Shown here one piece after another: positions 9,352 through 63,189 of a stretch of DNA of 64,000 nt (position 1 is the first letter of the stretch; each line of letters starts with the position of its first letter). The notes beneath the pieces were generated by a model, which was not told where the DNA came from, did not search any database, and worked only from the letters and a program-made list of their open reading frames with translations. Location of the stretch: positions 1,984,001 to 2,048,000 of the forward strand of contig NZ_BFCB01000003.1 in the NCBI RefSeq assembly GCF_003569045.1, in the 5' to 3' direction. Origin of the DNA: Aggregatilinea lenta (lineage in GTDB: Bacteria > Chloroflexota > Anaerolineae > Aggregatilineales > Aggregatilineaceae). Position numbers and translations under genes: made by a program.

Positions 9352-10025
9352 TGGGACGTAAGATTCATCCGGTCGGTTTCCGCCTTAAGGTCAACCGCGA
9401 CTGGTCTGCGCGCTGGTTTGCCGAAGGCGACCGCTACCGCATCCTGCTGCAGGAAGACTTCGAGATCCGCCGCTTCGTCGAAAAAGAAGCCGAGCGTGCG
9501 GGCATCGCGAGTGTCGAGATCGAGCGCTACCCGAATCAGGTTCAGGTGACGCTGTTCACCGCCAAGCCCGGCATCGTGATCGGTCGCAAGGGCGAAAGCG
9601 TCAAGAAGCTGCGCCAGGGCCTTGAAGACGTCACCGGCAAGAAGGTGAAGGTCGAGGTCGAGGAAGTCGAAAAGCCGGACCTCAGCGCGCGCCTGGTGGC
9701 CCTGAACATCTCCGGCCAACTCGAGCGCCGCATCGGTCACAGCCGCGCCATGAAGCGCGCGATCAGCCAGGCCATGCGCCAGGGCGCGAAGGGCATCAAG
9801 ATCCAGGTCAGCGGACGTCTGGCCGGGGCCGAGATGGCTCGCCGCGAATGGCAGATGGAAGGCCAGGTCCCGCGTAACACCCTGCGGTCGGTCATTGACT
9901 ACGGCACGGCTGAAGCGTTGACCACCTTTGGGCGGATCGGCATCAAGGTCTGGATCTATACGGGCGAATCGGCTCGTGAAGAATTACGGCCTGTAGAGCC
10001 GACTGACGTCTACGTGAGCCAGTAA
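9351..10025 (+). CDS. rpsC: 30S ribosomal protein S3
   Basis: mRNA-entry protein, 224 residues. The start MGRKIHPVGFRLKVNRDW and the KH-domain GXXG-like loop IGRKGESVKKLR are present. The C-terminus (PTDVYVSQ) is short compared with some species. A 63-base gap containing a small hairpin follows before rplP. Confidence 0.97.
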   Translation: MGRKIHPVGFRLKVNRDWSARWFAEGDRYRILLQEDFEIRRFVEKEAERAGIASVEIERYPNQVQVTLFTAKPGIVIGRKGESVKKLRQGLEDVTGKKVKVEVEEVEKPDLSARLVALNISGQLERRIGHSRAMKRAISQAMRQGAKGIKIQVSGRLAGAEMARREWQMEGQVPRNTLRSVIDYGTAEALTTFGRIGIKVWIYTGESAREELRPVEPTDVYVSQ

Positions 10026-37255: not shown

Positions 37256-38584
37256 TCAGCGTTCTTTGGCGCCAAACTTCGACTTGAGCAGGCTCGCCAG
37301 CGTGGGCTGGCCGATTTCCTGAAGCTCGTAGCGCACGCGTTGGTGCGGCTTGTCGATGCGGATCACGCGCGTGAGGTCGATCGGTGTGGCGATCAGCACC
37401 ATGTCGGCGGGCGTGTTACGGATCGTCTCTTCCAGGTCGTCTTGCTGGCTTTCACCGTAGCCCATCGCGGGCAGCAGGGTTCCGGTGGCCGGGTACTTCT
37501 CGAACGTCTCGATGATGCTCTTGACCGCATACGGGCGCGGGTCGACCAGCCCGGCTGCGCCGAAGCGCTGCGCCGCGACGACGCCCGCCCCGTACGACAT
37601 CTCGCCGTGGGTGAGGGTTGGCCCGTCTTCCACGACCAGTACCTTCTTGCCGCGAATCGCCGCCGGGTCGTCCACGAAGATCGGAGATGCCGCCTCGACG
37701 ACGGTCGCCGCCGGGTTATATTGGCGAATGCTCTGGCGCACCTCGACCAACCCTTCCGGTGGGGCGGAGTCGATCTTGTTGATCACGATTACGTCGGCCA
37801 TGCGCAGATTCGTCTCGCCGGGGTGATAGCGGAACTCATGGCCGGGACGCAGCGGATCGACTACCACGATCGAGAGGTCGGGGCGGAAGAACGGGAAGTC
37901 GTTGTTGCCGCCGTCCCACAGCACGATGTCCGCTTCTTGTTCGGCGGCACGCAGAATTTTCTCATAGTCAACACCCGCGTATACCACCGTGCCACGGTCG
38001 AGATGCGGCTCGTATTCCTCGCGCTCCTCGATGGTCACCTTGTTCTTGTCCAGGTCTTCGTAGCTGCCGAAGCGCTGGACGGCCTGCTCGGCCAGATCGC
38101 CGTAAGGCATCGGGTGGCGCACCACGACGACCGTGTAGCCCAGGCCGCGCAGTGCATCGCTGACGGCGCGGGTAGTCTGGCTCTTGCCGGAGCCGGTCCG
38201 CACGGCGCAGACGGACACGATCGGCTTGCTGCTCTTGAGCATGCTGTGATTCGGGCCGAGCAGCTTAAAGTCCGCCCCTGCCGCCAACGTCTGGCTGGCC
38301 TTGTGCATGACCGTCTCGTGCGATACGTCCGAGTACGAGAACACAACCTCGTCTACGTTGTGCTTGCGGATCAGCCGGTCCAGTTCCGATTCGGCGTAAA
38401 TCGGGATGCCTTCGGGGTAGAGCGACCCGGAAAGCTCGGCGGGGTAGGTGCGCCCCTCGATGTCCGGGATCTGCGTCGCAGTGAACGCCACGACGTCGTA
38501 CTGGTCGTTGTCACGATAAAAGACGTTGAAATTATGGAAGTCGCGCCCAGCGGCTCCCATAATCAAAACACGTGTTTTCAACAT
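37256..38584 (-). CDS. Cyclic 2,3-diphosphoglycerate synthetase-like GTPase
   Basis: 442 residues. A Rossmann-like N-terminal part (RVLIMGAAGRDFHNFN) is followed by a P-loop at about residues 127-138 (AVRTGSGKSQTT) and INKID as a G4-like motif. This architecture matches the proteins annotated as cyclic 2,3-diphosphoglycerate synthetase, known from thermophilic archaea and spread widely among bacteria. The physiological product in this organism is uncertain. Single-gene unit with its own terminator, 54 bases downstream of tatC. Confidence 0.8.
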   Translation of the reverse strand: MLKTRVLIMGAAGRDFHNFNVFYRDNDQYDVVAFTATQIPDIEGRTYPAELSGSLYPEGIPIYAESELDRLIRKHNVDEVVFSYSDVSHETVMHKASQTLAAGADFKLLGPNHSMLKSSKPIVSVCAVRTGSGKSQTTRAVSDALRGLGYTVVVVRHPMPYGDLAEQAVQRFGSYEDLDKNKVTIEEREEYEPHLDRGTVVYAGVDYEKILRAAEQEADIVLWDGGNNDFPFFRPDLSIVVVDPLRPGHEFRYHPGETNLRMADVIVINKIDSAPPEGLVEVRQSIRQYNPAATVVEAASPIFVDDPAAIRGKKVLVVEDGPTLTHGEMSYGAGVVAAQRFGAAGLVDPRPYAVKSIIETFEKYPATGTLLPAMGYGESQQDDLEETIRNTPADMVLIATPIDLTRVIRIDKPHQRVRYELQEIGQPTLASLLKSKFGAKER

Positions 38585-57971: not shown

Positions 57972-58631
57972 CTACACCAACCCCTTGTAACGTGCGTATC
58001 TGGCAGCGTCGTAGCGGCTGTTGACATGCAGTTTGGCGAGAATGTTGCGCATATGACTCTTAACGGTATGCAGGCTGATATTGAACTGCTCAGCGATCTC
58101 TTTATCGCTTGCCCCAGTCGCCACCTGCGCCAGGACTTCCTGTTCGCGGAACGTCAGCGTCTCGATTGGCTCGCCCTTGTCGGTGGGTAGATTGTGGCTC
58201 AGGCGGCGAAATTCTTCGAGCATCTGACCGGCCAGCACCGGCGTGATAGCGGCCTCACCGCGCAGCGCGCCGCGTATCAATTCCAGCATTGTCTCGGAGC
58301 GGATATTTTTGAGCAAGTAGCCCTGTGCGCCGTTCTTGATGGCTTCAAATAACTTTTCTTCGTCATTGTGGACCGTCAACACCACAACCACCGTATCCGG
58401 CAGGGCCGCCTTGACCTTACGCGTCGCTTCCAGACCATTGCCGCCGGGCATGGTGATATCCATCAGGATCAGGTCGGGCTTCAATTCCTGCGCCTTGACC
58501 AGCGCTTCCAGCCCGTCGTCAGCCTGCCCCACGATGACCATATCAGGCTGGCCCGTAATGATGCTGGCCAATCCTTCACGAAATAACGCATGATCATCGA
58601 CCAATAAAACGCGAACAGGGTCCATCTCCAT
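57972..58631 (-). CDS. NarL/LuxR-family response regulator
   Basis: 219 residues from the ATG at 58631 (ATG 58625 is equally possible; both lie inside the kinase 3' end or just after it). The receiver has LLVDDHALFREGL and acceptor aspartate in DLILMDITMPGGNG. The C-terminal LuxR helix-turn-helix is LTFREQEVLAQVATGASDKEIAEQ (about 150-215). It follows the NarX-like kinase directly, so it is its partner. The nar operon upstream region is a likely target (inference). Confidence 0.93.
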   Translation of the reverse strand: MEMDPVRVLLVDDHALFREGLASIITGQPDMVIVGQADDGLEALVKAQELKPDLILMDITMPGGNGLEATRKVKAALPDTVVVVLTVHNDEEKLFEAIKNGAQGYLLKNIRSETMLELIRGALRGEAAITPVLAGQMLEEFRRLSHNLPTDKGEPIETLTFREQEVLAQVATGASDKEIAEQFNISLHTVKSHMRNILAKLHVNSRYDAARYARYKGLV

Positions 58632-58642
58632 AACTCCACTAA

Positions 58643-60544
58643 CTACGCCGGTACTGCCTGTTGTACAGGCCATGTCAGGATCACGTGCGTGCCCTGTCCC
58701 GGCGCTGAGTCAATCATAAGATCGCCGCCAATGCGTGCCGCACGTGCCTGCATAATGCTCAACCCAAAGTGCCCCTTGCCGTTCACGGCGCTGGGATCAA
58801 ACCCGCAGCCGTTATCATGGATCATAACACGATAGGCTGATCCCTGGCGCTCCAATCGGATGGTAACGCGGGTCGCGCTGGCATGACGGCGCGCATTCTG
58901 CAAGGCTTCCAGAACCACCCGCAACACCTGGGCCATCGCGTCACTGTCCAGGACCACGCCTTGATCATTCGCGCTCACAACCTCGACCGCGATTTCGGGG
59001 GCAGATTGGGCAAAATCAGCGACAACGTCAGCCAGATGTTCCTGCAAAGTGCGACCCAGAACGGGAACGATTCGCAGGCTGGCGATCGATTGGCGCACTT
59101 CGTGACCGGCGCGATCCACTGCATCACTGATCAGTGCCAATTCCTGCGCCGCCTGCTCATTTGAATCGCGTGCGATCAGGTCCGCCAGACGACCGGTCTT
59201 GAGCCTGACATAACTGAGCGTTTGGGCCAGCCCGTCATGCATATCGGCGGCGATGCGCTGGCGTTCTTCCAATGCTGCCACACGTTCGGCCTGCTCATAC
59301 AGGCGCGCATTTTCCAACGCGATTGCCGTTGAGTTCGCCAGTTCGGTCAGCAGCCGGACCTGTTCGTGAGAATAGGTAGCTGCCCGTGTGCTGCCGACAC
59401 ATAACGCCCCGATCACGCGTTCCCCCACCCGAAGCGGCGCGGCAAGGTGGCTGGCCCGGTAATCCGGGGCCACCGTCTGACAGCCGCCCACATCACAAAT
59501 CATGGCTTCTTCACGGCCCAAAACCTGCGCTGCAACCGAGTGTTTCGCCAGGACACAACTGCCACAGACGGCATCCTGGGGACCGTTGTACGCCTTGAGC
59601 GTCAACGACTCGCCTGTACCATCCAGCAAACACAGGAAGGCGACATCACTAGCGAGCAAATCACGGGCCTTGCCGGTCACGGAGTCCAGGACGTGCGCGA
59701 TATCCAGGTGCGACGAAATCTCGCGAATCACGTCGTACAGGGCGGTCAATTCGCGCGTGCGCTGGTGAATACGCGCCTCAAGTCCGTCAGTCAATGTTTT
59801 TAACTGCGTGCGCATGGTATCGACGCTGATCGCCAGCTCCGTGAATTCGGGCGGACCGGCAATCTGTACCGGGCTGTTGAGATCACCCTGCCCAATCTGT
59901 TGCGCTGCGTTTTTTAGTGTTTGCAGAGGGGTCATAATAGCACGCCGGATCATCACCACGCCGATCACCAACAGCCCAACTGCGCACAAGAAAAAACCAG
60001 CTTGTATCCACCCCAAATGCGCCAGTTTGCCCTCAGACTCCGCCTCGATTAACCGCACAATCTCGTCCGCCTGCTGAACCAACTGCGGCGAAAGCGCCTG
60101 TAGAGACTGGATCGCGGCGTCAAAGCTGGCGATGCCGGGCGATGCCGTTTCAATTACGCGCAAGTCATCCTGGAACATGGTCCAACGCTGCTGGAGTTCG
60201 CGCAGTTCAGCCCGGATGGTATCCGATCCGGTTGCCGGTACGGAAACCGTCTGCCCAGGAAGATACTGCGTTTCGCCACCAGCGATCAACGCGGTGAGTG
60301 TTTGATCAAACACAGTTGTTGCGTCGCGCAGAATTTGTCTGTGTTCGTCCTGGTTTTGGCCCGCTTGGATTTGCAGCGCCTGGCTGGTGATCTGCTGCAC
60401 GAGCATACGCTGGCGTCCAGCCAGATTGATCACCAGCGCATCCTGATCCTGATCGCGCACCATCCACGCGGTTGCCACCACGGAGATCGTCACTAGAATC
60501 AAGAAGGATAGGAACAGCAGGCCCAGCCTGTTTCGGAGAGTCAC
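58643..60544 (-). CDS. NarX-like sensor histidine kinase with four-cysteine GAF domain
   Basis: 633 residues. Two membrane helices (about 7-28 and 184-203) flank a periplasmic four-helix sensor that starts with INLAGRQRMLVQQI, matching the NarX/NarQ P-box that binds nitrate. HAMP (about 205-255) and GAF (about 285-410) domains follow. The GAF domain has C327, C330, C350 and C355 (CGSC...CDVGGC), a set that could hold an Fe-S cluster. The HisKA_3 acceptor is H436 in AADMHDGL; the HATPase end is DNGCGFDP...GHFGLSIM. Partner of the NarL-like regulator. Confidence 0.9.
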   Translation of the reverse strand: MTLRNRLGLLFLSFLILVTISVVATAWMVRDQDQDALVINLAGRQRMLVQQITSQALQIQAGQNQDEHRQILRDATTVFDQTLTALIAGGETQYLPGQTVSVPATGSDTIRAELRELQQRWTMFQDDLRVIETASPGIASFDAAIQSLQALSPQLVQQADEIVRLIEAESEGKLAHLGWIQAGFFLCAVGLLVIGVVMIRRAIMTPLQTLKNAAQQIGQGDLNSPVQIAGPPEFTELAISVDTMRTQLKTLTDGLEARIHQRTRELTALYDVIREISSHLDIAHVLDSVTGKARDLLASDVAFLCLLDGTGESLTLKAYNGPQDAVCGSCVLAKHSVAAQVLGREEAMICDVGGCQTVAPDYRASHLAAPLRVGERVIGALCVGSTRAATYSHEQVRLLTELANSTAIALENARLYEQAERVAALEERQRIAADMHDGLAQTLSYVRLKTGRLADLIARDSNEQAAQELALISDAVDRAGHEVRQSIASLRIVPVLGRTLQEHLADVVADFAQSAPEIAVEVVSANDQGVVLDSDAMAQVLRVVLEALQNARRHASATRVTIRLERQGSAYRVMIHDNGCGFDPSAVNGKGHFGLSIMQARAARIGGDLMIDSAPGQGTHVILTWPVQQAVPA

Positions 60545-60657: not shown

Positions 60658-61350
60658 ATGCCCAATTCAGATCAAATGCACCCTGCCGTAAAACTATTGT
60701 CCTCTATCACATATCTTGAGAGTCTGGACACCGTGACTCTTGAATCAGTCGCGCGTACGGCTGTCAAACGGACCTACAATTCAGAACAGATCGTGTTTCT
60801 CGAAGGCGACTCCAGCAGCGGGTTCTGTGTTGTTCAAGATGGCTGGCTGAAGGCGATCAAGATTGCGCCGGATGGCCGCGAGCAGGTCTTAAATTTTCTT
60901 GGACCGGGTGAGGTCTTCAACGCAGTTGGGGTGTTTGCCGGTGATTCCAATCCGGCCACCGTAATCGCCCTGGAACCGTCCACAATCTGGATCATCCAGC
61001 GGGATACGATGCTCCGCTTGCTGGAAGATCATCCTGGGTTGGCGCGTGCCGTGATTCAAGACCTGGCTGGGCGTGTCCTACACCTTATCCAGATGGTAGA
61101 AGACCTGTCACTCCGTTCGGTGGAAGCGCGCCTGGCCCGCCTGTTACTTGAGCAGACCCAAACCGATATCTTGTCCCGTCACCGCTGGGCAACGCAGGCT
61201 GAGATAGCGTCACGGCTGGGCACGGTCCCCGATGTCATAAACCGTGCCTTACGATCTCTAGCTCAAGATGGCCTGATCAAAGTTGAACGGCATCAAATAC
61301 AAATCTTGAATAAAGCCGGTTTGGAGACCAAAGCCGGTCTCGATATCTGA
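60658..61350 (+). CDS. CRP/FNR-family transcription regulator
   Basis: 230 residues. The cyclic-nucleotide-binding-fold sensor domain spans about 15-130, with GPGEVFNAVGVFAG as the roll motif. A dimerisation helix and a winged helix-turn-helix follow (RWATQAEIASRLGTVPDVINRALRSL). There is no N-terminal cysteine cluster and only one cysteine overall (SSSGFCVVQDG), so it is not an Fe-S FNR. A DNR/NnrR-like or other effector-sensing regulator is possible. Encoded divergently from the kinase and just upstream of three genes carrying CGAC-N4-GTCG boxes, so it is the prime candidate for binding them. Confidence 0.9.
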   Translation: MPNSDQMHPAVKLLSSITYLESLDTVTLESVARTAVKRTYNSEQIVFLEGDSSSGFCVVQDGWLKAIKIAPDGREQVLNFLGPGEVFNAVGVFAGDSNPATVIALEPSTIWIIQRDTMLRLLEDHPGLARAVIQDLAGRVLHLIQMVEDLSLRSVEARLARLLLEQTQTDILSRHRWATQAEIASRLGTVPDVINRALRSLAQDGLIKVERHQIQILNKAGLETKAGLDI

Positions 61351-61366
61351 CCCACTCCGCACGATC

Positions 61367-61407
61367 CGACAAAAGTCGAAGACACACGGTCGCTCAGGGC
61401 GTATGCT
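61367..61407 (+). promoter_or_regulatory. CGAC-N4-GTCG box 1 and class II promoter of the ferredoxin unit
   Basis: The palindrome CGACAAAAGTCG (61367-61378) is followed after exactly 23 bases by TATGCT (61402-61407). The predicted start at about 61414 puts the box centre at -41.5, the class II CRP/FNR activator position. No -35 box is visible, as expected for an activated promoter. Confidence 0.75.
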
Positions 61408-61447
61408 AAACGCAACAACCTGGGCGATTTGTTTCGCAGGAGCATGT

Positions 61448-61681
61448 ATGACAAAGCCAACACAATCACTGCCGGTTCCGCTTATTGATCACGACCGCTG
61501 TACTGGGTGTGGACTGTGCGTGGACGTGTGCCCAAACGGGGCGCTGGCGTTAAGCGACCAGCAAGCGGTTGTGGCACGACCCGATCAGTGTGACTATACC
61601 GGTTATTGCGAGCTTATCTGCCCCACGCAAGCCATTGAGCGCCCATTTCAAATCATCGTGATCACATCACAAGGAGAATAA
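61448..61681 (+). CDS. Ferredoxin with one 4Fe-4S and one incomplete cluster motif
   Basis: 77 residues from the ATG at 61448 (AGGAG five bases upstream). The first motif, CTGCGLCVDVCP (C18, C21, C24, C28), binds a 4Fe-4S cluster. The second has C48, C54 and C58 but threonine (T51) where the second cysteine should be, so a 3Fe-4S or no cluster is expected. Soluble electron carrier; partner unknown. First gene under box 1; the cupin gene follows after four bases. Confidence 0.88.
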   Translation: MTKPTQSLPVPLIDHDRCTGCGLCVDVCPNGALALSDQQAVVARPDQCDYTGYCELICPTQAIERPFQIIVITSQGE

Positions 61682-61685
61682 CGCT

Positions 61686-62024
61686 GTGCATCAAACAAAA
61701 TTTCACTGGGATCAAAGAATTGCTTTCGGAACCGACGGTCCTCAACCCCAGCCGTTGTTAGATAACGAGTGCGTCAAAATGGTACTCGTCGGACTGGAAC
61801 CCAAACAGCAAATTCCACCGCACCCGGCACCGTCCGCCGTGTATTACTTCATCGAGGGAAACGGTTGGATGACCGTCAATAGTGATCGCTTTGAAATCGG
61901 CCCCGGCGTGATTGTGCGCACACCGGATGGCGCAGACCGGGGTATAGAAGCCAATACGCGCCTGGTTTTTCTGGGTACACACGGCAAAAACGGCGTGCAG
62001 CATCCTGTTGATGGCGATGGATAA
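61686..62024 (+). CDS. Small cupin-domain protein
   Basis: 112 residues, GTG start with AAGGAG eight bases upstream. One cupin barrel: IPPHPAPSAVYYFIEGNGWMTV and FEIGPGVIVRTPDGADRGI correspond to the two cupin motifs, with fewer histidine ligands than typical enzymes (H-x-A in motif 1). Metal binding is uncertain. Four bases after the ferredoxin gene, so co-transcribed from the box 1 promoter. Confidence 0.8.
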   Translation: MHQTKFHWDQRIAFGTDGPQPQPLLDNECVKMVLVGLEPKQQIPPHPAPSAVYYFIEGNGWMTVNSDRFEIGPGVIVRTPDGADRGIEANTRLVFLGTHGKNGVQHPVDGDG

Positions 62025-62056
62025 ACGTATCGATGTGAGCAAAACGTGAGGATACC

Positions 62057-62500
62057 ATGCGGCGCGTGCTTCTGGTGACGGACGGTTCACCCAACGCTTT
62101 ACGTGCGGCTCGAACCGCCGCGCAGCTTGCCCAGCGATCACGCGGCGAGGTGTTGGTTATCTACGTGATTCCACCTGTTCAAGCCCTTGCTAAAAATACC
62201 GTCAGCAAGGGCGGTGCTGGCTTAAACACTATCGTGGACGCGCTGCGCGATGCAATGCAAATGGGCCACACCGCGCTGACACAAGCTGCGAACATCCTGG
62301 CCCAGGCCGGAATTTCGCACACGGCGCGACTTGAACAGGGTGTCCCGGCAACGGTGATCTGCCAGGTTTCGAGAAGCGAGTCGTGTGATGCTATCGTGAT
62401 TGGCAGCGCCAACCTGGATCGCACGACTACGCTGGCGCTTGGCGAAACGAGCAAACGACAAAACAACTGCGATTCATGTGCAGTGATCATTGTCAGTTAG
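62057..62500 (+). CDS. Universal stress protein family (UspA-like)
   Basis: 147 residues. RRVLLVTDGSPNALRAARTA is the start of the Usp fold, and VIGSANLDRTTTLALGETSKRQ contains the ATP-binding G-x-S...G-x-T/S loop in a diverged form. Third gene of the ferredoxin-cupin-usp unit, 32 bases after the cupin gene. Usp proteins often belong to anaerobic or stress regulons. Confidence 0.88.
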   Translation: MRRVLLVTDGSPNALRAARTAAQLAQRSRGEVLVIYVIPPVQALAKNTVSKGGAGLNTIVDALRDAMQMGHTALTQAANILAQAGISHTARLEQGVPATVICQVSRSESCDAIVIGSANLDRTTTLALGETSKRQNNCDSCAVIIVS

Positions 62501-62549
62501 CTCGTTTGACCACACGCCCGATACGACCCCATCACATCCGCCCCAAACC

Positions 62550-62590
62550 CGACTTTTGTCGATGACGGCCTCGCGCCAGGCGGTTACAGT
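62550..62590 (+). promoter_or_regulatory. CGAC-N4-GTCG box 2 and class II promoter
   Basis: CGACTTTTGTCG (62550-62561), the reverse complement of the other two boxes, is followed after 23 bases by TACAGT (62585-62590). The box centre lies at -41.5 from the predicted start at about 62597. It controls the unknown gene at 62664. Confidence 0.75.
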
Positions 62591-62663
62591 GGAAGCACTG
62601 AAACCAATTATTCGCTGGCTGTCTTCTTGACGGTCAGCATACCTGTCCAATGGAGGATATCTC

Positions 62664-63125
62664 GTGTTTAACCAATCCAAACCCAGTCTGAATGTCCACG
62701 CTCTCATCCGAGACATGCTCGAAGATGAACGTGAACTGCTCATCCTGCTAGGGCAGGATTTTCTGACCGCGCACCTCGAAGACGTTGAAACCCGGCTCCA
62801 CCGCTGGCAGAACTATTTTGAGAATCACTATGCCCGTGACACACCGCCACGCGGTGACGCCGACAAGCTGCGCGTTTACCAGATCGAGTATGCATTGATC
62901 ACACAGTTAGCCACTGAATCGCAAACGGAACCTTTCCCGGTTGTCCACCAACGCGCCCTGCAACAAGCGCGGCAGCGGATGCGTCTGCTGGTCAATAAAC
63001 GGGACTTTACGAATGCTTCGCTCAAGTCCACGCGTTTTGAAGCACACCTGGAACAGGAGTTTCTGGTTGATCTGTGGTCCAAATGGCATACTTGGCTGAA
63101 ACCGCGCCGCTTGCAAAATCGGTGA
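62664..63125 (+). CDS. Protein of unknown function under CGAC-N4-GTCG control
   Basis: 153 residues, GTG start with GGAGG seven bases upstream. Predicted all-helical and highly charged; no signal peptide, membrane segment or cysteine. I do not recognise a domain. Motif-like stretches are MLEDERELLILLGQDFL near the N-terminus and a basic C-terminus (KWHTWLKPRRLQNR). Single gene between box 2 and box 3; its regulation suggests a role in the same redox or anaerobic response. Confidence 0.75.
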   Translation: MFNQSKPSLNVHALIRDMLEDERELLILLGQDFLTAHLEDVETRLHRWQNYFENHYARDTPPRGDADKLRVYQIEYALITQLATESQTEPFPVVHQRALQQARQRMRLLVNKRDFTNASLKSTRFEAHLEQEFLVDLWSKWHTWLKPRRLQNR

Positions 63126-63148
63126 TTCCGAATCCTTCCGGCAAAATC

Positions 63149-63189
63149 CGACAAAAGTCGAAGAAACGTTCACTAATCTGCGCCATGAT
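63149..63189 (+). promoter_or_regulatory. CGAC-N4-GTCG box 3 and class II promoter
   Basis: CGACAAAAGTCG (63149-63160) with flanks like box 1 (TCCGAC...GTCGAAGA) is followed after 23 bases by CATGAT (63184-63189). The box centre is at -41.5 from the predicted start at about 63196, 38 bases before the CopD-like gene. Confidence 0.75.

Follow-up and report, generated by a model that had tools for sequence, protein, structure and literature searches.

We examined a window of 64,000 nucleotides from the Aggregatilinea lenta genome (Chloroflexota, class Anaerolineae; G000:C3:1984001-2048000, on contig 3 of the 6.2 Mb genome), at whose right end three copies of a palindromic box accompany the gene of a CRP/FNR-family regulator, here called 60658 after its first position (Table 1). 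The protein combines a sensor domain of the cNMP-binding type (cNMP_binding, PF00027, 2.5e-22) with a Crp-type helix-turn-helix (HTH_Crp_2, PF13545, 1.4e-12), the domain pair of the superfamily. The original prediction placed the 12-mer CGACAAAAGTCG or its reverse complement at 61367, 62550 and 63149, with a gap of 23 bases to the hexamers TATGCT, TACAGT and CATGAT, and the sequence agreed exactly in box and gap at all three sites. The centre of site 2 (TTTT) is opposite to those of sites 1 and 3, which have 19 bases in common (ATCCGACAAAAGTCGAAGA), and site 3 has a second hexamer, TAATCT, at spacing 13.

Table 1. Coordinates of the boxes, promoter elements and genes in the window, and of inverted repeats at comparison loci.
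Feature	Position	Strand	Basis or remark
NarL-like response regulator	57972-58673	minus	
NarX/NarQ-like sensor gene	58643-60544	minus	PilJ, HAMP, GAF domains
CRP/FNR-family regulator, 230 aa (amino acids)	60658..61350	+	Pfam; recognition helix GTVPDVINRALR
Operator 1, CGACAAAAGTCG	61367..61378	+	
-35-like hexamer AAGACA	61379..61384	+	sequence; abuts operator 1
Promoter 1 -10 hexamer TATGCT	61402..61407	+	offset 23
4Fe-4S ferredoxin	61448..61681	+	Pfam Fer4; first gene of promoter 1
Small cupin	61686..62024	+	Cupin_2 2.7e-05, slightly under family cut-off; cluster C1
Universal stress protein (Usp)	62057..62500	+	Pfam Usp
Operator 2, CGACTTTTGTCG	62550..62561	+	reverse complement of CGACAAAAGTCG
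Promoter 2 -10 hexamer TACAGT	62585..62590	+	
153-aa protein, family unassigned	62664..63125	+	cluster C16; L055 member also downstream of box
Operator 3, CGACAAAAGTCG	63149..63160	+	
Promoter 3 -10-like hexamer CATGAT	63184..63189	+	weak
CopD-like membrane protein, 158 aa	63234..63710	+	Pfam CopD 4e-09; cluster C5
Perfect inverted repeats flanking -10	L074:2195, L082:2185, L089:2143, L166:2715, L205:2036		

In the whole genome CGACAAAAGTCG occurs four times, and three of these copies lie within 1.8 kb beside the 60658 gene. The fourth was rejected as a regulon site because it falls within a 326-aa open reading frame (ORF), which we take to be an IS110-type transposase. With three of four copies here and gaps of exactly 23 bases, clustering and spacing are both far from chance. 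The looser CGAC-N4-GTCG, which had been put forward as the motif, is unremarkable when its centre is left free: the window has 5 copies against 3.07 expected (at least 5 in 19 of 100 shuffles) and the host genome has 296 against 244 for the reversed pattern. As these counts are barely above those of the shuffles and the reversed pattern, it was rejected as a genome-wide enriched signal, which indicates that the A/T-rich centre matters. The conserved box stands, but its motif has an A/T-rich centre rather than any four bases, together with conserved flanks. CGACGACGGTCG and CGACAAACGTCG stand at window positions 37696 and 47645, both within ORFs. The ORFs at 47.9-54.3 kb of the window are presumably narGHJI; the same promoter on this putative nar operon was rejected, since the core GAC-W4-GTC-N24-TAnnnT occurs in the window only at 61368 and 62551.

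A scan of 84,980 species genomes with the 19-mer that sites 1 and 3 share yielded 11 matches in 10 stretches, where equal base use would give about 1.9. Seven of the 10 records are Anaerolineae, Anaerolineales or Chloroflexi assemblies, and in all 8 of their matches the hexamer at offset 23 carries A and T at positions 2 and 6, respectively; 5 of the 8 also carry T at position 1. The three others (L050, L051 and L053) have CGCTAC, CAGCGA and CCCTTG there and were rejected as members for want of a -10 at that offset; with about 1.9 expected, they are likely chance matches. A homologue of 60658 (51-86% identity) adjoins the box in six of the seven Chloroflexi records (L046, L047, L049, L052, L054 and L055; not L048). 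A frame-shifted regulator at L049 was considered and rejected, the gene being intact in another frame.

The spacing was then assessed in the best 30 protein matches to 60658, taken with about 1.5 kb on each side (less at contig ends), in which boxes were sought afterwards; L070 of this protein-selected set is the same contig as L054 of the 19-mer set. The rule fixed CGAC-N4-GTCG itself, took an A/T-rich centre and oriented each box by more A than T. At least one box was present at 26 of the 30 loci (none at L075, L079, L081 and L086), giving 32 boxes, one of which is window site 2, to which the orientation rule assigned the wrong direction. Offset 23 holds TAnnnT in 26 of the 32 boxes; none of 39 other offsets (5 to 44) has it in more than 3. 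Also conserved are AAA at -5 to -3, the C preceding the box, and G-A-(C) at offsets 14-16 (G in 29, A in 26 and C in 20 of 32). On sequence grounds this last element is the GAC of a predicted -35 hexamer 17 bp from the -10, its first two T lost (they are retained in just 9/32 and 4/32 boxes), as expected for an activator-dependent promoter. The refined motif is about AAAyC-CGAC-AAAA-GTCG-nn-GAC(a)-N17-TAnnnT. At loci of family f32 (L135:2997, L136:7020, L137:3059, L172:1960 and others), a GGGGCGnGAAGCGGGG-like stretch and TAAAGT often follow the box in place of the -35 GAC.

Across 396 genomes of the class, CGACAAAAGTCG-N23-TAnnnT gave 73 matches in 50 genomes (1-4 per positive genome), compared to a single match for the reversed pattern. 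The genome search that had been proposed, which stays near background with a free-centre CGAC-N4-GTCG, does discriminate when box, spacing and -10 are taken together. In these 50 genomes, spacings 12-22 yielded 4 matches altogether, compared to 11 when the pattern was reversed, and two of the 4 are extra hexamers in boxes of the protein-selected loci (G269:C118 and window site 3). With offset 23 prevailing in the 32 boxes and 73 matches set against 4 over 11 other spacings, the claim that this spacing is unlikely by chance is borne out, and the proposed class II geometry, with the box predicted to be centred at -41.5, finds support in comparative genomics. No match was found in 106 genomes from the phylum's other classes, while 8 of 15 class members in the same draw had one. 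A 60658 homologue at E<=1e-30 is present in 194 of the 396 genomes, namely in 46 of the 50 that bear the promoter compared to 148 of the 346 others (Fisher p = 7e-12, uncorrected for relatedness).

Three near-copies could also have arisen by recent local duplication or as an inserted repeat, with no regulatory meaning. The 19 bases shared by sites 1 and 3 would fit this, as would similar sequence at L055 and L074, including an inverted repeat around the -10. However, the centre of site 2 is reversed, and the spacers of the 32 boxes vary outside the box, its adjacent bases and the -35 and -10 positions. Since the spacers vary while box and -10 are constant over 30 genera, selection rather than copying is indicated, and we consider duplication extremely unlikely.

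In E. coli CRP and FNR, class II sites are centred at -41.5 with a GA core three bases from the centre, and recognition runs through positions 180, 181 and 185. The helix of 60658 has Pro180-Asp181-Arg185 in CRP numbering (by-eye alignment). We compared helices and boxes at 70 loci, i.e. the 30 above and 40 lower-ranked homologues hand-picked down the list of 60658 protein matches, and residues 180-181 were Pro-Asp in 45, Arg-Glu in 19, Arg-Asp in 4, Ala-Asp in 1 and Val-Asp in 1. Genes with a strict box no more than 600 bp away were those of 33 of 45 Pro-Asp regulators, 5 of 6 other Asp types and 1 of 19 Arg-Glu regulators (Fisher p = 1.3e-7, uncorrected), that is, for 38 of 51 Asp-type against 1 of 19 Glu-type homologues. 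Half-sites were then tabulated with just GAC-N4-GTC, the A/T-rich centre and the -10 fixed, leaving the outer bases free. Pro-Asp loci (36 promoters in 33 of 45 loci) had C before GAC in 64 of 72 half-sites and an outer G in 3 of 72; with all four half-site letters free, CGAC still led clearly, occurring at 33 of 45 loci while the runner-up had 6. Arg-Asp loci, with a promoter in 2 of 4, had C before GAC and an outer A in 4/4 half-sites each, and the single Ala-Asp and Val-Asp loci both had C in 2/2. Arg-Glu loci, with a promoter in 6 of 19, had the outer G in 12/12 half-sites and a free base before GAC (A3 T4 C4 G1). Recognition helix residues 180 and 181 appear to predict the paired box, with Asp181 going with C before the GA core. 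L182 (Arg-Glu helix, CGAC box) was rejected as an exception, as its flanks read TGCGAC, which fits the Arg-Glu rule.

The Arg-Glu sisters share the sequence family of the 60658 type and, where a promoter was found, its -10 spacing; they differ in a CRP-like operator, TGnGAC-N4-GTCACA. TGTGA-N6-TCACA with one mismatch lies near the gene at L173, L176, L183, L187, L192 and L201, just 6 of the 19, and each of these sites except that at L192 is followed at the class II distance by a -10-like hexamer (TATAAT, TATAAT, TACAAT, GATAAT and TATAGT). In addition, TGNGACWWWWGTCACA-N21-TAnnnT has 29 matches in 24 of the 396 genomes and none when reversed. Some Arg180-Glu181 homologues have TGnGAC-N4-GTCACA in the same class II geometry. 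Alternatively, the box might be a repressor operator overlapping the -35, or the protein might be dual-acting; in favour of this, the box abuts the -35 hexamer and a good -10 (TATAAT) is kept in some promoters. Repressor sites are usually freer to shift position, whereas a -41.5 centre is fixed in both sister specificities, as in class II activators, and the -35 is without its TT; we regard this alternative as very unlikely.

Another factor nearby might bind the boxes, with 60658 merely adjacent to them. A NarX/NarQ-like sensor and a NarL-like regulator are next door, and about 8 kb beyond the boxes lies a second CRP/FNR gene (L056:9992-10675) with the FNR-like helix TTPETISR. This is very unlikely in our view, as the box accompanies 60658 homologues across genomes in both the protein-selected and the 19-mer-selected loci and helix residues and bases pair in a way that points to 60658. 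Moreover, the second CRP/FNR protein has Glu-Ser-Arg like FNR, for which TTGAT would be expected, and the box is unlike NarL heptamers.

We conclude that 60658 is very probably a CRP/FNR-family activator that binds yCCGAC-AAAA-GTCG boxes and turns on its neighbours by class II activation. Starting from the computed boxes, spacing, co-location, co-occurrence and residue-base pairing, we infer its binding, activation and activation contacts as follows. A 60658 dimer would bind yCCGAC-AAAA-GTCG centred at -41.5, directly upstream of the degenerate -35 (nnGACa) that is 17 bp from the -10, and would recruit sigma-70 RNA polymerase through class II contacts. Pro180 would remove the contact that reads the outer G, and Asp181 in place of Glu would go with the C just before the GA core. 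Because most boxes closely follow the regulator gene and point the same way as it (30 of 46 promoter-like boxes at the loci compared, within 250 bp), the regulator is predicted to switch on its neighbours: ferredoxin-cupin-Usp, the 153-aa protein, and the CopD-like membrane protein together with its downstream genes. That 60658 is the likely binder, as first proposed, is supported by box co-location, co-occurrence and helix-base pairing.

Several observations weigh against this conclusion. The host genome itself has just one match to the strict box-N23-TAnnnT pattern, and the bare 12-mer is barely enriched in the 50 genomes (99 versus 81 reversed), so that the enrichment belongs to the promoter arrangement rather than to the 12-mer. 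Four of the 50 promoter-bearing genomes (G168, G214, G315 and G346) are without a homologue at E<=1e-30, a cut-off that also admits Arg-Glu types and therefore does not denote orthology. A strict box within 600 bp is missing for 13 of 51 Asp-type regulators, some Asp-type loci have imperfect half-sites, and 13 of 19 Arg-Glu loci have neither a TGTGA-N6-TCACA site (one mismatch allowed) near the gene nor a sister-type promoter. Relatedness inflates all counts, and the sign test for the residue-box link cannot reach significance. On a helix-masked tree the Asp/Glu label changes 3 times and the box label 11 times; with just 3 changes of the former, the link rests on few independent events. Inside the Arg-Glu clade, the Arg-Asp loci L204 and L205 have the CGAC box again, and L197 is without a box.

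The 60658 type is, as far as its sequences tell, an activator subfamily within the CRP/FNR family with an operator of its own. The operator is a palindrome with the GA core three bases off centre, and the predicted promoter has it centred at -41.5 before a sigma-70 -10. E. coli CRP and FNR share the -41.5 centre, the register of the GA core and the recognition positions 180/181/185, and differ in their sites, TGTGA-N6-TCACA or TTGAT-N4-ATCAA, and in their helices, RETVGR or VETISR instead of PDVINR. Neither the boxes nor the half-site table show the FNR operator TTGAT-N4-ATCAA, and the paucity of outer G at Pro-Asp loci (3/72 half-sites) departs from the CRP operator; comparative genomics supports the claim that the box is distinct from FNR, CRP and NtcA sites. 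The sensor domain differs from that of FNR in that the Fe-S (iron-sulphur) cysteines are not conserved: among the 51 Asp-type homologues no column has Cys in more than 40%, which excludes an FNR-type Fe-S cluster, and none has His in more than 45%, so that a conserved His/Cys haem ligand is not seen either. CRP contacts cyclic AMP through Glu72, Arg82 and Ser83, where 60658 has Ala, Pro and Ala (by-eye alignment only), and 60658 scores 52 bits against the NCBIfam CRP model, whose cut-off is 266. It matches solved CRP/FNR structures, with the DNR structure 3dkw at 5.3e-15 although not as the best, and sensors of this type may have a DNR-like hydrophobic pocket.

Other parallels are HcpR1, DNR and NnrR, which are likewise CRP/FNR proteins without the FNR cysteines. 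Passages of Rodionov et al. 2005 (PMC1274295) give the HcpR1 box as wyTTGACnnnnGTCAArw, with the GAC-N4-GTC core also seen here, and pair R180 with G3 and E181 with A6; replacement of R180 by Pro or Ser accompanies loss of the outer G, again as here, and HcpR1 with Pro or Ser keeps TTGAC. Pro180 alone thus does not explain the C. The difference from HcpR1 is TTGAC there against yCCGAC here, where Asp181 goes with C; those passages of PMC1274295 do not describe an Asp181-C pairing, and its main text has no word starting CGAC. Asp181 with C before GA would extend the published R180-G3 and E181-A6 pairings.

Of 30 boxes right behind a regulator gene, 5 have their -10 flanked by a perfect 10-12 bp inverted repeat, where shuffling predicts about 1.05; elsewhere the figure is 1 of 16 boxes (0.45 expected). 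Of the 5 repeats, 4 continue into T-rich sequence. Window site 1 has an imperfect one at 61390-61427, with arms TCGCTCAGG and CCTGGGCGA. The repeat resembles a terminator hairpin of the regulator gene whose loop holds the -10 of the following promoter.

Genes behind the box were surveyed at 48 loci chosen for carrying it, not a random sample, where 71 sites came out under a relaxed rule, partly the same box read on the wrong strand; gene calling relied on a simple ORF script, which overlooks some target genes, including the window cupin, and the families of recurrent clusters were assigned from one representative each. A 400-aa membrane protein lies downstream of the box in 15 loci (L164:3096-4328 and 14 others) and the small cupin family in 10 besides the window, whose cupin is 49% identical to that at L154. 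FtsX-type permease, site-2 protease, cytochrome b561, cytochrome c, ferritin, VIT-family transporter and DUF1858 recur in 2-4 loci each, and the CopD-like family is present at two further box-bearing loci (L133 and L138). The 153-aa protein gave no Pfam match at E<=0.01. In the 400-aa protein, His42, His176, His178 and His272 are invariant in 12 aligned members. One member had no Pfam match at E<=0.001, three had none above cut-off in NCBIfam, and a 12-sequence profile found none among solved structures; NnrS matched one of three members tried, weakly and below cut-off (E 0.0044). The 400-aa protein is absent from the host genome at E<=0.001 in a search without positive control. According to passages of PMC1274295, NnrS is among NnrR and DNR targets. 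The recurrent families make it a reasonable guess that the system plays a part in nitrogen-oxide, iron and redox stress.

Around the window boxes, the NarX/NarQ-like sensor and NarL-like regulator sit between the putative nar genes and the 60658 gene. Just right of the window, a cupredoxin/multicopper gene (L056:8203-9561), a ferredoxin (9615-9860) and the second CRP/FNR gene stand in a row on one strand (minus), possibly a nitrite reductase cluster. The next CGAC promoter of the host genome, C3:2055784 (minus), precedes a 216-aa protein without Pfam family and is about 1 kb from a CRP/FNR gene other than that of 60658, a 452-aa cupredoxin-domain protein and a ferredoxin with 52% identity to that of the window.

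In a broader reading, which could just as well fail as hold, these proteins form an Anaerolineae CRP/FNR subfamily whose specificity was switched by two helix residues (Arg180-Glu181 with TGnGAC, Pro180-Asp181 with yCCGAC, Arg180-Asp181 with nACGAC), the geometry being preserved as protein and boxes changed in step. The Asp form would then control a set of genes for nitrogen-oxide, iron and redox defence, at the centre of which stands an undescribed NnrS-like membrane protein. By title, no paper on this operator in Chloroflexota was found (subscription literature was outside the scope), and the string CGACAAAAGTCG returned 0 papers; both are weak evidence of novelty. Passages of PMC8756737 on Chloroflexi nitrite reductases name no Crp or FNR gene in Chloroflexi. 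RegPrecise, as outlined in parts of PMC3840689, covers 5 Chloroflexi genomes with 30 transcription factor regulogs, and its curated regulons may include CRP/FNR members. The kind of system is thus known, and the novelty lies in its distinct operator and two-residue code, in a large class of mostly uncultured bacteria.

How proteins recognise DNA is classically illustrated by the CRP/FNR family. The sisters described here are a natural series in which the promoter geometry is fixed, two residues differ and the bases change clearly at two positions, and this is directly testable with a few purified proteins and duplexes. The printed code (R180-G and E181-A; passages of PMC1274295) came from other bacterial groups; as two amino acids appear to predict the box, a new branch of a known activator family would gain a readable DNA code. 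With 73 matches against 1 in the control, the strict promoter pattern offers a regulon handle on Anaerolineae, by which genes of unknown function in that class can be found through their promoter.

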